Assembly (NCBI RefSeq): GCF_013141915.1
Contig: NZ_SROX01000001.1
Coordinates: 186,001 to 250,000, forward strand
From: Cupriavidus necator
GTDB taxonomy: Bacteria; Pseudomonadota; Gammaproteobacteria; Burkholderiales; Burkholderiaceae
DNA length: 64,000 bases
Reading direction: 5' to 3'
Part shown: positions 57,571 through 64,000 of the stretch, piece by piece
How positions within the stretch are numbered: position 1 is the stretch's first letter
Layout: the number at the start of each line of letters is the position of its first letter
Notes under the pieces: generated by a model
Databases searched by the model: none
Told to the model about the DNA's origin: nothing
What the model saw: the letters and a program-made list of their open reading frames with translations, nothing else
Position numbers and translations under genes: made by a program

Positions 57571-57679
57571 GTTTGCTGTCCTCTTTGCAGTTTCGACATT
57601 GTCACCTATCTGTGCGCTGCACACGACTATGCCGGGAACGGCGCGCCGCCAAGCGCGATGTTCAAGGGAAAACCCTGCC

Positions 57680-57707
57680 TTGCAGTTCGCGGTACGCCTA
57701 CTAATCT
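57680..57707 (+). promoter_or_regulatory. Candidate sigma-70 promoter of hpsN
   Basis: TTGCAG (57680-57685), a 16-bp spacer and TAATCT (57702-57707). Transcription would start near 57714, inside the first LacI operator, giving a 100-nt leader. Confidence 0.45.
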
Positions 57708-57710
57708 TTT

Positions 57711-57726
57711 ATGAAAGCGCTTTCAT
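57711..57726. promoter_or_regulatory. LacI-type operator O1, perfect 16-bp palindrome
   Basis: ATGAAAGCGCTTTCAT is perfectly symmetrical with the AGCGCT core typical of LacI/GalR operators with a central CG. It overlaps the expected start of hpsN transcription. Confidence 0.8.
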
Positions 57727-57776
57727 TTAAGAAGTTGAGTGCTGAAGCAGCACGCCAGCTAGATTTGGCCTCCAAA

Positions 57777-57790
57777 TGATAGCGCTTACA
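57777..57790. promoter_or_regulatory. LacI-type operator O2
   Basis: TGATAGCGCTTACA keeps the AGCGCT core and TG/CA ends but is less symmetrical than O1. It lies 65 bp further on, about six helical turns, so looping between O1 and O2 is possible. Confidence 0.65.
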
Positions 57791-57814
57791 TTTCAATCCC
57801 CGAAAGGAACCCTG

Positions 57815-59125
57815 ATGATCACCTACCTGAAGCAAGCCAGGAAAACACCGCAGACGGAGACCGCCACCGCGCAGCAAGTGGTGACCGGCATGCTGGCCGA
57901 GATCCAGGCGCATGGCGAGGCTGCGGTGCGCCAGTACGCCAGCCAGCTCGACGGCTGGGACGGCGAGATCGTGCTGACCCCGGACCAGGTCCGGCAGCAG
58001 ACCCGCGACGTGCCCGCGTCGGTGCGCGCCGACATCGATTTCGCGATCGGCCAGGTGCGGGCGTTTGCGCTGGCGCAGCGCGAATCGCTGCGCGAGTTCT
58101 CGGTCGGGCTGCACCCGGGCGTGACCGCGGGGCAGCGCGTGATCCCGGTCAACGTGGTGGGCTGCTACGCCCCGGCGGGCCGCTATGCGCATATCGCGTC
58201 GGCCTACATGGGGGTGGCGACGGCGAAGGCTGCCGGCGTCGGCACCGTGGTGGCATGCTCTAGCCCGTTCCGCGGCCAGGGCATCCATCCGCACGTGCTC
58301 TATGCCTTCCAGGCCGCCGGCGCCGACGTGATCATGACGCTCGGCGGCGTGCAGGCGATGGCTGCGATGGCCTATGGCCTGTTCACCGGCAAGCCCGCCG
58401 ACGTGGTGGTCGGCCCGGGCAACAAGTTTGTCGCCGAGGCCAAGCGGTCGCTGTACGGGCAGGTGGGGATCGACGTGTTCGCGGGGCCGTCCGAGGTTGC
58501 CGTGATCGCCGACGACAGCGCCGACCCGGCCATCGTGGCGAGCGACCTGGTGGGGCAGGCCGAGCACGGCCACGAGTCACCGGCGTGGCTGTTCACCACC
58601 TCGCGCGCGCTGGCGGAGCAGGTCATGGCACGGGTGCCCGCGCTGATCGCCGCGCTGCCGCCCACCGCGCGCGACGCAGCCACGGCGGCATGGCGCGACT
58701 ACGGCGAGGTCATCGTCTGCGACAGCCGCGAGGAAGTGGCCGCGGTCTCTGACCGCTATGCCTCCGAGCACCTGGAGGTGCACGCGCAGGACCTGGACTG
58801 GTGGCTGGCCAACCTGACCTGCTACGGCTCGCTGTTCCTTGGCGAAGAAACCACGGTGGCCTTCGGCGACAAGACCAGCGGCCCCAACCACGTGCTGCCG
58901 ACCAAGGGCGCGGCGCGCTATTCGGGCGGGCTCTCGGTGCACAAGTTCATGAAGACCCTGACGTGGCAGAAGATGACGCGCGAGGCCACGCGGCAGATCG
59001 GCCAGGTGACCGCGCGCATCTCGCGCCTGGAGGGCATGGAGGCGCACGCGCGCACCGCGGACGACCGCATGGCAAAGTACTTTCCGAACGCCCGCTTCGA
59101 GATGGGCGCCGCGGTGGAGGTCTGA
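57815..59125 (+). CDS. hpsN: Sulfopropanediol 3-dehydrogenase (HisD-like)
   Basis: A 436-residue member of the histidinol dehydrogenase family. HpsN oxidises (R)-2,3-dihydroxypropane-1-sulfonate to (R)-sulfolactate with two NAD+. Metal ligands align as Q248, H251 (GQAEHGHE), D352 ([13 protein letters not shown]) and H411 ([12 protein letters not shown]). The NAD loop [16 protein letters not shown] is at 200-214. Choice of HpsN over HisD rests on context: no his genes nearby, and suyAB in the same cluster. The ATG follows GAAAGGA. It ends overlapping the next gene (TGATG). Confidence 0.85.
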
Positions 59126-59913
59126 TGATGGCGCCCTTGCAGCATGCGGCCGACGGTCGCGGACCCGACCTGCGCGGCAGGCAGGCGCTGGTGACCGGCG
59201 GCAGTTCCGGCATCGGCGAGAGCCTGGCCGAGGCGCTTGGCCGGGCCGGCGCCAGGGTGGTGCTGGCGGCGCGCCGCCAGCCGCAGCTCGATGCCGCGGC
59301 GTCGCGGCTCGATGCGATGGGCATCGCCGTCGACACGCAGGTGCTGGACGTATCCGACCTCGATGCCATTCCCGCCGCCGCAGCGGCCTTGCAGCGCCGC
59401 TGCGGCACCATCGATATCCTGGTGAATGCCGCGGGCATGAACCTGCGCGAGCCGTTTGCCAGTGTCACGCCGGCGTCGTGGCGGCTGCAACTGGACACGC
59501 ATCTGGGGGCGCCGTTCTTCCTGACGCAGGCGCTGGCGCCGGCGATGCAGGCGCAAGGATGGGGGCGCGTGCTCAACCTTGCTTCGCTGCAGTCGTACCG
59601 GGCCTTCGCCAACAGTGCGCCCTACGGCGCGGCGAAGGGCGGCATCGTCCAGCTGACGCGCGCCATCGCCGAGGCGTGGTCGCCGCACGGGATCACCTGC
59701 AATGCGATCGGCCCGGGCTTTTTCCCCACCGCGCTGACCGGCCCCGTGTTCGCTGACGCCGCGCTGGCGCAGCACCATGCCGCGCGCACCTGCATCGGCC
59801 GCAACGGCGCGTTGCCGGACCTGCACGGACTGGCCGCGTTCCTGGCCAGCGACATGGCCGCGTATATCACCGGGCAGACTTTCATGGTCGACGGCGGCTA
59901 CACGGCAAGATGA
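59125..59913 (+). CDS. hpsO: SDR dehydrogenase of the DHPS cluster (HpsO-type)
   Basis: A 262-residue NAD(P)-dependent SDR. The cofactor motif TGGSSGIG is at residues 24-31; S154, Y167 and K171 (APYGAAKGG) form the active site. In Cupriavidus pinatubonensis the DHPS route uses HpsO and HpsP, thought to interconvert DHPS enantiomers through the 2-keto compound; this gene has the matching family and place. The first of two adjacent ATGs overlaps the hpsN stop, after GGAGG. Confidence 0.72.
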
Positions 59914-62456: not shown

Positions 62457-62500
62457 GTGCCGGACCAGCTGCGGCGCGCACCGCCGGCAGCCGCCAAAAT

Positions 62501-62512
62501 TCATATATATGA
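62501..62512. promoter_or_regulatory. AT-rich palindrome upstream of the suyA promoter
   Basis: TCATATATATGA is a perfect 12-bp palindrome, AT-rich in a GC-rich region. Its centre is about 47 bp before the expected start site, the usual position for an activator next to the -35 box. Confidence 0.55.
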
Positions 62513-62517
62513 GTTGG

Positions 62518-62546
62518 TTGACATGGATGAATCGAGCGCCTAACAT
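62518..62546 (+). promoter_or_regulatory. Strong sigma-70 promoter of suyAB
   Basis: TTGACA (62518-62523), exactly 17 bp, and TAACAT (62541-62546): a consensus -35 box and a good -10. It lies 35 bp before the suyA start, within what would otherwise be one operon. Confidence 0.75.
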
Positions 62547-62580
62547 GACTTCACGCACGACCCACAGAGAGGAGACAACG

Positions 62581-62862
62581 ATGATTCACGTAGTGCTTCA
62601 TGACGCCAAGGACACCGTCGCAGTGGCCGTGGTGGAAGGGATCCAGCCGGGCACGCAGCTCAACGCCTGGATCATGGATGAAGACAAGGTCGTCACGGTG
62701 ACCGCACTGCAGCCGATTCCCATCGGCCACAAGGTGGCGCTGCGCGACATGGATGTGAACGAGACGGTCTACAAGTACGGCATCGACATCGGCAAGGTGG
62801 TCGCCCCGATCAAGGCCGGCGAACACGCCCACGTCCACAACATCAAGACCAAGCGCTGGTAA
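62581..62862 (+). CDS. suyA: (2R)-sulfolactate sulfo-lyase subunit alpha
   Basis: A 93-residue SAF-domain protein, the small subunit of sulfolactate sulfo-lyase, which splits (R)-sulfolactate into pyruvate and sulfite. The sequence contains IPIGHKVALRDMD, then YKYGIDIGKVVAPIKAGEHAHVHN and the end KTKRW, as in SuyA. The ATG follows GAGGAG. It is followed 84 bp later by suyB. It is the small homologue of the N-terminal domain of the GarD protein at 3452. Confidence 0.9.
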   Translation: MIHVVLHDAKDTVAVAVVEGIQPGTQLNAWIMDEDKVVTVTALQPIPIGHKVALRDMDVNETVYKYGIDIGKVVAPIKAGEHAHVHNIKTKRW

Positions 62863-62946
62863 GCCCGGCGCGCCGCCCCTGCGGCCGCCCGACGCTTCCT
62901 GCCCGCTTTCCATCCCGCTTCCATCCGCTTCCCGAGGATCCACGTC

Positions 62947-64000
62947 ATGTCCGTGATCGACCAAAACACCACCTTCTGGGGCTACCGCCGCGACAATGGC
63001 CGCGTCGGTGTCCGCAACCACGTCATCATCCTGCCGCTGGACGACCTGTCCAACGCCGCCGCCGAGGCCGTCGCCGCCGCCATCAAGGGCACCATGGCGA
63101 TTCCCCACCCCTACGGCCGCCTGCAGTTCGGGCCGGACCTAGACCTGCATTTCCGCACGCTGATCGGCGCCGGCAGCAATCCCAACGTCGCCGCGGTGGT
63201 GGTGATCGGCATCGAGGACGGCTGGACCAAGAAAGTCGTCGACGGCATCGCCCAGACCGGCAAGCCGGTGGTCGGATTCGGCATCGAGGGCCACGGCGAC
63301 CACGACACCATCATGCGCGCTTCGAAGGCGGCGCGCGAATTCGTGCAGTACGCCACCGCGCTGCACCGCGTCGAGTGCCCGATCAACGAGTTGTGGGTCT
63401 CGACCAAGTGCGGCGAGTCGGACACCACTTCGGGCTGCGGCGCCAACCCTACCGTCGGCAACGCCTTCGACAAACTGCACCCGCTCGGCACCACGCTGGT
63501 GTTCGGCGAGACCTCGGAGCTGACCGGCGGCGAGCATATCGTCGCGGCACGCTGCGCCAACGACGATGTGCGCCACCAGTTCATGGCGATGTTCGAGCGC
63601 TACCAGGGCATGATTGACCGCTGGAAGACGTCGGACCTGTCCGAGTCGCAGCCGACCAAGGGCAATATCGCCGGCGGCCTGACCACCATCGAAGAAAAGG
63701 CGCTGGGCAATATCCAGAAGATCGGCAAGAAATGCACCGTCGACGGCGTGCTCGACAAGGCCGAGGCGCCGACGCATCCGGGCCTGTGGTTCATGGACTC
63801 GTCTTCCGCCGCGGCGGAGATGGTCACGCTGTGCGCGGCCGCCGGCTATGTGGTGCACTTCTTCCCGACCGGGCAGGGCAACGTGATCGGCAATCCGATC
63901 GTTCCGGTGATCAAGCTGTGCGCCAACCCGCGCACCGTGCGCCTGATGAGCGAGCACATGGACGTCGACTGCTCGGGCCTGCTGCAGCGCGAGCAGACCC
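62947..64000 (+). CDS. suyB: (2R)-sulfolactate sulfo-lyase subunit beta (5' part)
   Basis: The first 351 codons of the large subunit of sulfolactate sulfo-lyase; the gene runs off the window. Segments match SuyB closely: [71 protein letters not shown], and [14 protein letters not shown]. It is homologous to the catalytic domain of GarD/UxaA. With SuyA it makes the desulfonating step of the DHPS route and releases sulfite into the cytosol. The ATG follows GAGG. Confidence 0.92.

Follow-up and report, generated by a model that had tools for sequence, protein, structure and literature searches.

2,3-Dihydroxypropane-1-sulfonate (DHPS) is a common sulfonate from algae and from plant sulfolipid breakdown. 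DHPS and sulfolactate arise in the breakdown of sulfoquinovose, a compound produced in very large amounts, and the corresponding gene cluster of Cupriavidus pinatubonensis has been named hpsRNOUPsuyAB (both PMC11382572). Here we describe a cluster of the same kind in Cupriavidus necator, located at the end of a 64,000-nucleotide stretch of DNA (assembly GCF_013141915.1, contig NZ_SROX01000001.1, positions 186,001 to 250,000; hereafter the window). A divergent lacI gene is followed by hpsN-hpsO-hpsU-hpsP-suyA-suyB and then by slcC-comC-tctC-gntR; the window ends inside the cluster, the contig being 1.12 Mb long and the genome 6.97 Mb. The locus is very probably an operon for DHPS catabolism of the C. 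pinatubonensis type and built of two modules, lacI-hpsNOUP and suyAB-slcC-comC-tctC-gntR. The basis of this reading is the identity and order of the genes, the conservation of two kinds of palindrome, and the existence of relatives that have the second module without the first at the same place.

Plasmid p2 of C. pinatubonensis HN-2 (NZ_CP080769) carries the same genes in the same order, with a divergent LacI-family gene and paired operator-like palindromes. The initial annotation of this DNA had proposed the order from hpsN to suyB with a LacI regulator and pointed to C. pinatubonensis for comparison; all of these genes were located as described, and the HN-2 record has the same order. The range 57571-64000 does hold the cluster, although its start does not coincide with a gene boundary, lacI falls mostly outside it, and suyB extends to 64122. 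The HpsN/HpsO/HpsU/HpsP/SuyAB cluster behind the proposed complete route from DHPS to pyruvate and sulfite is likewise present, while the cluster continues past suyB with slcC-comC-tctC-gntR. This continuation distinguishes the locus from the HN-2 plasmid, where a short slcC-like remnant (21 residues, 71%) lies between suyB and tctC (L005, 18327-18814) and the complete suyAB-slcC-comC-tctC-gntR is found on another contig. Such an arrangement fits the trimming of a fused ancestor. On the HN-2 plasmid, NAD(P) transhydrogenase genes follow tctC.

In Ruegeria pomeroyi DSS-3 the HpsN, HpsO and HpsP genes also lie beside a LacI-family regulator gene, hpsR (SPO0590), which is so annotated (PMC4334477). 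The differences are a TRAP transporter (hpsKLM) in place of the major facilitator carrier, hpsQ and slcD as the following genes, and the absence of suyAB from the run SPO0590-SPO0598 as that source presents it. The initial annotation regarded LacI as a distinct control scheme for the pathway. We reject this claim because a LacI gene stands at the same place in HN-2, is found at 61 of 80 related loci and has its counterpart in R. pomeroyi hpsR. The 80 loci were taken from named records (44 of the stretches span at least 21 kb, the others less), and matches above 100 bits anywhere in the stretch number 61 for LacI, 75 for hpsO, 70 for hpsP and 31 for suyB.

For the second module the nearest likeness is Paracoccus wurundjeri, whose SuyA, SuyB, SlcC and ComC have accession numbers that follow the order seen here and in which SlcC/ComC have been proposed as a two-component racemase. 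The authors compare that suyAB-slcC-comC module with Chromohalobacter salexigens and others; it serves sulfofucose, whereas the module here lies downstream of a DHPS block (all PMC12421959).

Identity of the enzymes

HpsN matches the solved sulfopropanediol 3-dehydrogenase PDB 8v35 end to end (436 residues, 874 bits), compared with 228 bits for its best histidinol dehydrogenase match. The motif G-R-Y-A/S-H, which includes the sulfonate-binding His126, occurs as GRYAH at residues 122-126, and the pattern is present in a plus frame at 80 of 80 related loci. All 11 residues checked, which the crystal study PMC11382572 names as zinc ligands or as catalytic or substrate residues, are kept (Asp46, His126, Ser226, Gln248, His251, Glu318, His319, Asp352, Lys353, His359 and His411). 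Identity is 88% to the C. pinatubonensis HN-2 protein and 97% to that of C. alkaliphilus. The genome has a separate HisD without the GRYAH motif, with GGKAAYP at that position. The scores, the motif and the retained residues speak clearly against the histidinol dehydrogenase reading, which the initial annotation had named as one of two refuting outcomes, and judged by its sequence the protein is a true HpsN. A HisD-like paralog at L002 (G000 C38:137585-138799) has GGKYPL where HpsN has AGRYAH.

Both sulfolactate sulfo-lyase subunits are 97% identical to their HN-2 counterparts. SuyB contains the domains GD_AH_C and GD_AH_second, and the SAF domain of SuyA scores 20.7 bits, just below the cut-off of 21. 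The SuyAB identity given in the initial annotation is borne out by a small SAF-type and a large GD_AH subunit that are encoded by neighbouring separate genes and closely resemble the pair of C. pinatubonensis. This SuyB is the only close one in the genome, two others being 33-34% identical. One of these is an open reading frame at 3452-5017 of the window (34%), probably a galactarate- or altronate-type dehydratase; the other, at C11:471974 (33%), lies just before an aldehyde dehydrogenase match.

The two enzymes could in principle be read together as a histidinol dehydrogenase and an altronate- or galactarate-type dehydratase in a cluster that serves a sugar acid. HpsN does pass the TIGR00069 hisD cut-off (421 against 243.8 bits), and SuyB shares the fold family of the galactarate/altronate dehydratases. 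The end-to-end match of HpsN to a solved HpsN, with its sulfonate-binding and catalytic residues, and the separate HisD elsewhere in the genome argue against such a cluster, as does the galactarate dehydratase (GarD) family TIGR03248, on which SuyB scores 144.3 and SuyA 27.2 bits against a cut-off of 730.85. We reject the sugar-acid dehydratase reading and consider the sugar-acid cluster extremely improbable.

The proteins encoded beyond suyB are named with less certainty. Among the five NCBIfam families listed for ComC, L-sulfolactate dehydrogenase (NF040650) is the best. Counting against the sulfolactate assignment of this module, the ComC score of 213.4 bits is below the curated cut-off of 500, and slcC is assigned from its context and a match to a broad 2-hydroxyacid dehydrogenase family. 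The name ComC is a probable one, given from context. The gntR gene takes its name from NCBIfam matches, none of which reaches its cut-off, the best being PhnF (104 against 156.8 bits).

For the upper pathway, HpsO finds PDB 9pvq first (476 bits) and 8wwf, a structure named HpsO, second (255 bits), and is 85% identical to the HN-2 gene annotated hpsO. HpsU belongs to Pfam MFS_1 and is 86% identical to the major facilitator gene of the HN-2 cluster. HpsP matches PDB 8wwd at 283 bits, the next best structure reaching 142, and is 86% identical to the HN-2 gene at the same cluster position. We take 8wwd to be an HpsP structure, the record itself saying zinc-containing alcohol dehydrogenase only. 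HpsO and HpsP were accepted on top matches to solved DHPS dehydrogenases plus cluster position.

Published work disagrees on what HpsO and HpsP do, with an epimerisation model in PMC11382572 and a direct-oxidation model in PMC11131964, and this disagreement weighs against the pathway as we draw it below. Under direct oxidation, HpsP would convert (S)-DHPS to (S)-sulfolactaldehyde and further to (S)-sulfolactate, which SlcC/ComC would invert, and there would be no epimerisation at C2 by HpsO/HpsP. Support comes from the reported activity of R. pomeroyi HpsP on (S)-DHPS at C3, with a chiral selectivity shared by the C. pinatubonensis enzymes (PMC11131964), and from the linkage of slcC-comC to the cluster here. 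On the other hand, no aldehyde dehydrogenase was found at E 1e-30 within the fetched stretches of any of the 80 hps loci (36 of them shorter than 21 kb) when four of the 32 matches in the genome studied here were used as queries and a positive control was run; at E 1e-5 there were two weak partial matches only. The negative result slightly favours HpsN as the only linked C3 oxidation, though an unlinked enzyme may contribute. We regard direct oxidation as possible, with the chances leaning somewhat to the other side.

Two candidate control points

The LacI protein contains the Pfam domains PF00356 (LacI, 59.7 bits) and PF13377 (Peripla_BP_3, 97.9 bits), which place it in the family, and it is 79% identical to the product of the LacI gene adjoining hpsN in HN-2. 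Two palindromes, corresponding to the two operators of the initial annotation, lie 65 bp apart between lacI and hpsN. Within the window alone these palindromes are only mildly unusual, which is weak evidence: allowing two mismatches, there are four strand matches, all at the two operators, compared to a mean of 0.94 in 100 shuffles, four of which reach 4. The pattern TGWWAGCGCTTWCA has no further exact match in the 6.97 Mb genome beyond operators 1 and 2; this and the other genome patterns were written from the sites themselves, and only the absence of further matches counts as a result.

Comparisons among related loci provide the stronger evidence for the predicted LacI operators. With up to three mismatches to TGAAAGCGCTTTCA, a consensus taken from this window, a site is present in 55 of 61 regions upstream of hps-linked lacI genes. 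Outside Cupriavidus it occurs in 46 of 52 regions, compared to a mean of 0.9 and a largest count of 31 among 300 permuted palindromes. At two mismatches the corresponding numbers are 38 of 52, 0.07 and 4. At four mismatches, 114 sites are found in the 61 regions and 13.8 are expected. The LacI proteins are identical within two pairs of loci (L012/L013 and L075/L078), and L005/L009 represent a single record. Where two sites occur in Cupriavidus, their spacing ranges from 54 to 99 bases.

All 63 hps-linked LacI proteins match the window LacI best, ahead of four paralogs (a fifth, L113, gave no frame), a result that is partly circular because the proteins were picked by similarity to this LacI; in a tree of 62 + 4 rows the paralogs are not cleanly separated. 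Two points count against the pairing of this LacI with these sites. Two of the 61 regions (L027 and L053) are without a LacI-type site even at four mismatches, and the palindrome is no proof that this LacI binds there, because LacI-family sites resemble one another.

A second palindrome, GTCAT-N4-ATGAC, emerged from 12 loci in which gntR is divergent from suyA, its halves being counted in 7 and 8 of the 12. With up to two mismatches it is present in 28 of 32 regions upstream of suyA; 59 permuted controls averaged 1.9 regions and reached 9 at most. The site occurs in 9 of the 12 discovery loci, in 19 of the 20 loci not used for motif finding, and in 18 of 22 regions outside Cupriavidus. The misses are L021, L028, L070 (Caballeronia, where the stretch was perhaps cut too short) and L073. 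The 32 regions include the window itself and HN-2 three times (L005/L009 as one record, L111 as a second copy). L059 has two perfect copies 30 bases apart upstream of suyA. A HutC-like operator (GT-N-TA-N-AC) was rejected as a candidate for the site before suyA, being found in 0 of 31 loci cut to about 300 bases (L063 and L081 uncounted). We found no paper that describes the suyA site by its title or abstract opening; subscription papers were outside the scope of that search.

In the window the site reads TTCATATATATGAG, and TTGACA begins 4 bases after it. TTGACA-17-TAACAT is the sole sigma-70-like site in 57500-62950. The natural reading of these features is a putative GntR-controlled promoter for suyAB-slcC-comC nested inside the larger operon. 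Several observations weigh against it. The window site deviates from the consensus at 2 of 10 scored positions, and matches of such quality are common by themselves (13 in 19 kb of L004, with a mean of 5.4 expected). Ten of the 32 suyA regions are Cupriavidus loci. The promoter-like site is within chance, 0.5 being expected from shuffles, and the same search detected no sigma-70-like site before hpsN. The weight of the putative GntR-type site comes from its position before suyA and not from the quality of the match.

A simpler arrangement would be a single operon in which LacI and DHPS alone govern the genes from hpsN to comC and both the palindrome and the promoter-like site before suyA are unused. 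It is consistent with the layout, as hpsN through comC are co-directional with intergenic gaps of at most 124 bp, with the chance-level promoter match, and with the HN-2 plasmid, which carries hps-suyAB with no gntR annotated beside it. However, the combination of the palindrome and, 4 bases further on, TTGACA occurs in 9 of 10 Cupriavidus suyA regions (the exception is L008) and also in all five compared relatives without an hps block. In addition, a looser copy of the palindrome with 2 mismatches starts 67 bases upstream of gntR on the window's contig, and copies with 2 or 3 mismatches precede gntR in four further loci, that is, in 5 of 5 examined. On balance we consider the single operon unlikely and the nested promoter the better account.

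Distribution of the two modules

Among 60 Cupriavidus genomes, 13 contain hpsN (E 1e-180 or better) and 36 contain slcC (E 1e-120 or better), all 13 being within the 36; the remainder of the slcC module was observed only in fetched stretches. In 9 of the 13 hpsN-positive genomes slcC is about 6 kb from hpsN. In the other 4 it is on a different contig, so that a joining of the modules is not required, and this counts against the two-module operon.

In 5 of 6 fetched hpsN-negative relatives (L126-L130), the tctC that in the window stands next to lacI adjoins suyA, with 267 to 301 bases between the tctC and suyA matches; in the sixth (L131) tctC is not next to suyA. The flanks of L129 match the window over several genes on both sides. 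In L127 and L128 five left-flank genes match and the first right-flank gene does not, L126 matches the bordering tctC and two right-flank genes, and L130 matches tctC only. The presence of suyAB-slcC-comC at the site in some close relatives that lack lacI-hpsNOUP indicates that the DHPS block behaves like a cassette. By eye, the block adjoining lacI (51183-56483) comprises two tctC-type binding-protein genes, a medium-chain dehydrogenase, a CoA-transferase and a LysR gene, and parts of it adjoin suyA in relatives without the hps block.

Cassette-bearing genomes vary as well. G145, G045, G226 and G231 share flanking genes on both sides, G145 and G231 being without the bordering tctC though their flanks are shared, while G026 shares no flanking genes. 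One locus (L134, G318) has lacI-hpsNOUP with no suyAB after it, and in another (L132, G079 C39) the hps block appears broken, hpsN matching only from residue 100 and lacI and hpsU being partial. The presence of the lacI-hpsNOUP block next to suyAB therefore varies among relatives. In a his-locus tree the distribution of the cassette looks patchy (9 changes among 26 genomes), with weak support inside the clade of the window and with no distinction between gain and loss in those changes. The tree was built by FastTree from 26 of 30 loci, leaving out G315, G317, G089 and G131, and is without three hpsN-positive genomes (G303, G079 and G318). A sharp border was seen at the suyA operator, but the sequence on its upstream side may simply be unconstrained.

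These comparisons lead us to propose that in Cupriavidus lacI-hpsNOUP could be an exchangeable cassette set directly upstream of the promoter and putative GntR operator of a sulfolactate operon that is older and occurs more widely. Control would then be nested and respond to two signals, DHPS acting via LacI on the whole route and sulfolactate via GntR on its lower half, and the C. pinatubonensis cluster would be a trimmed copy of the fused form. We judge this proposal to have an even chance of being correct.

Gene layout and proposed mechanism

The positions of the predicted features are collected in Table 1. We place the hpsN start at the ATG preceded by AAAGGAA; a longer open reading frame from 57776 would start inside operator 2. 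Overlaps of 4 bp occur between suyB and slcC and between slcC and comC.

Table 1. Predicted genes and control elements of the DHPS locus, in window coordinates, with the basis of each assignment.
Feature	Position	Strand	Basis or remark
lacI-family regulator (hpsR-like)	56557-57624	-	divergent from hpsN; Pfam LacI and Peripla_BP_3
predicted LacI operator 1, palindrome TGAAAGCGCTTTCA	element 57711-57728, palindrome 57712-57725	.	comparative conservation
predicted LacI operator 2, TGATAGCGCTTACA	element 57774-57793, palindrome 57777-57790	.	just 5' of hpsN ribosome-binding site
hpsN, (R)-DHPS 3-dehydrogenase (4-electron oxidation to (R)-sulfolactate)	57815-59125	+	PDB 8v35 match, motif, residues
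hpsO, short-chain DHPS dehydrogenase	59128-59913	+	PDB 9pvq and 8wwf matches; HN-2 hpsO
hpsU, MFS uptake carrier	60003-61367	+	MFS_1; HN-2 MFS gene
hpsP, Zn-dependent DHPS dehydrogenase	61443-62456	+	PDB 8wwd match; HN-2 gene at same position
predicted GntR operator TTCATATATATGAG, 2 mismatches to consensus	62500-62513	.	position-specific conservation 5' of suyA
promoter-like site TTGACA-17-TAACAT	62518-62546	+	before suyA; sigma-70-like
suyA, sulfolactate sulfo-lyase small subunit	62581-62862	+	HN-2 identity; SAF domain
suyB, sulfolactate sulfo-lyase large subunit	62947-64122 (window part to 64000)	+	GD_AH_C and GD_AH_second
slcC	64119-65057, beyond window		general 2-hydroxyacid dehydrogenase family and context
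comC	65054-66076, beyond window		NCBIfam best family and context
tctC	66133-67149, beyond window		
gntR	67288-68028, beyond window		NCBIfam matches below cut-off

We infer the substrates, the inducers, the pairing of proteins with sites and the sign of GntR action (repressor or activator) from sequence, and the following scheme should be read in that light. HpsU would import DHPS, HpsO and HpsP would act on its two enantiomers, and HpsN would oxidise (R)-DHPS to (R)-sulfolactate, which SuyAB would cleave to pyruvate and sulfite. SlcC and ComC may convert (S)- to (R)-sulfolactate via sulfopyruvate. LacI would repress through its two operators in the absence of DHPS or a derivative, and GntR would act at its own operator beside the promoter before suyA. 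With such an operator and promoter in that position, the lower half of the route could be induced by sulfolactate alone.

The cluster is an ordinary, well-supported member of a known catabolic cluster type, and its two-module, two-operator architecture is a modest addition to the known pathway. If the two-module reading is true, it would offer a genetic handle on the separate responses of soil bacteria to these two compounds, DHPS and sulfolactate, and natural strains in which this operon either has or lacks an adjoining DHPS cassette could be compared directly.

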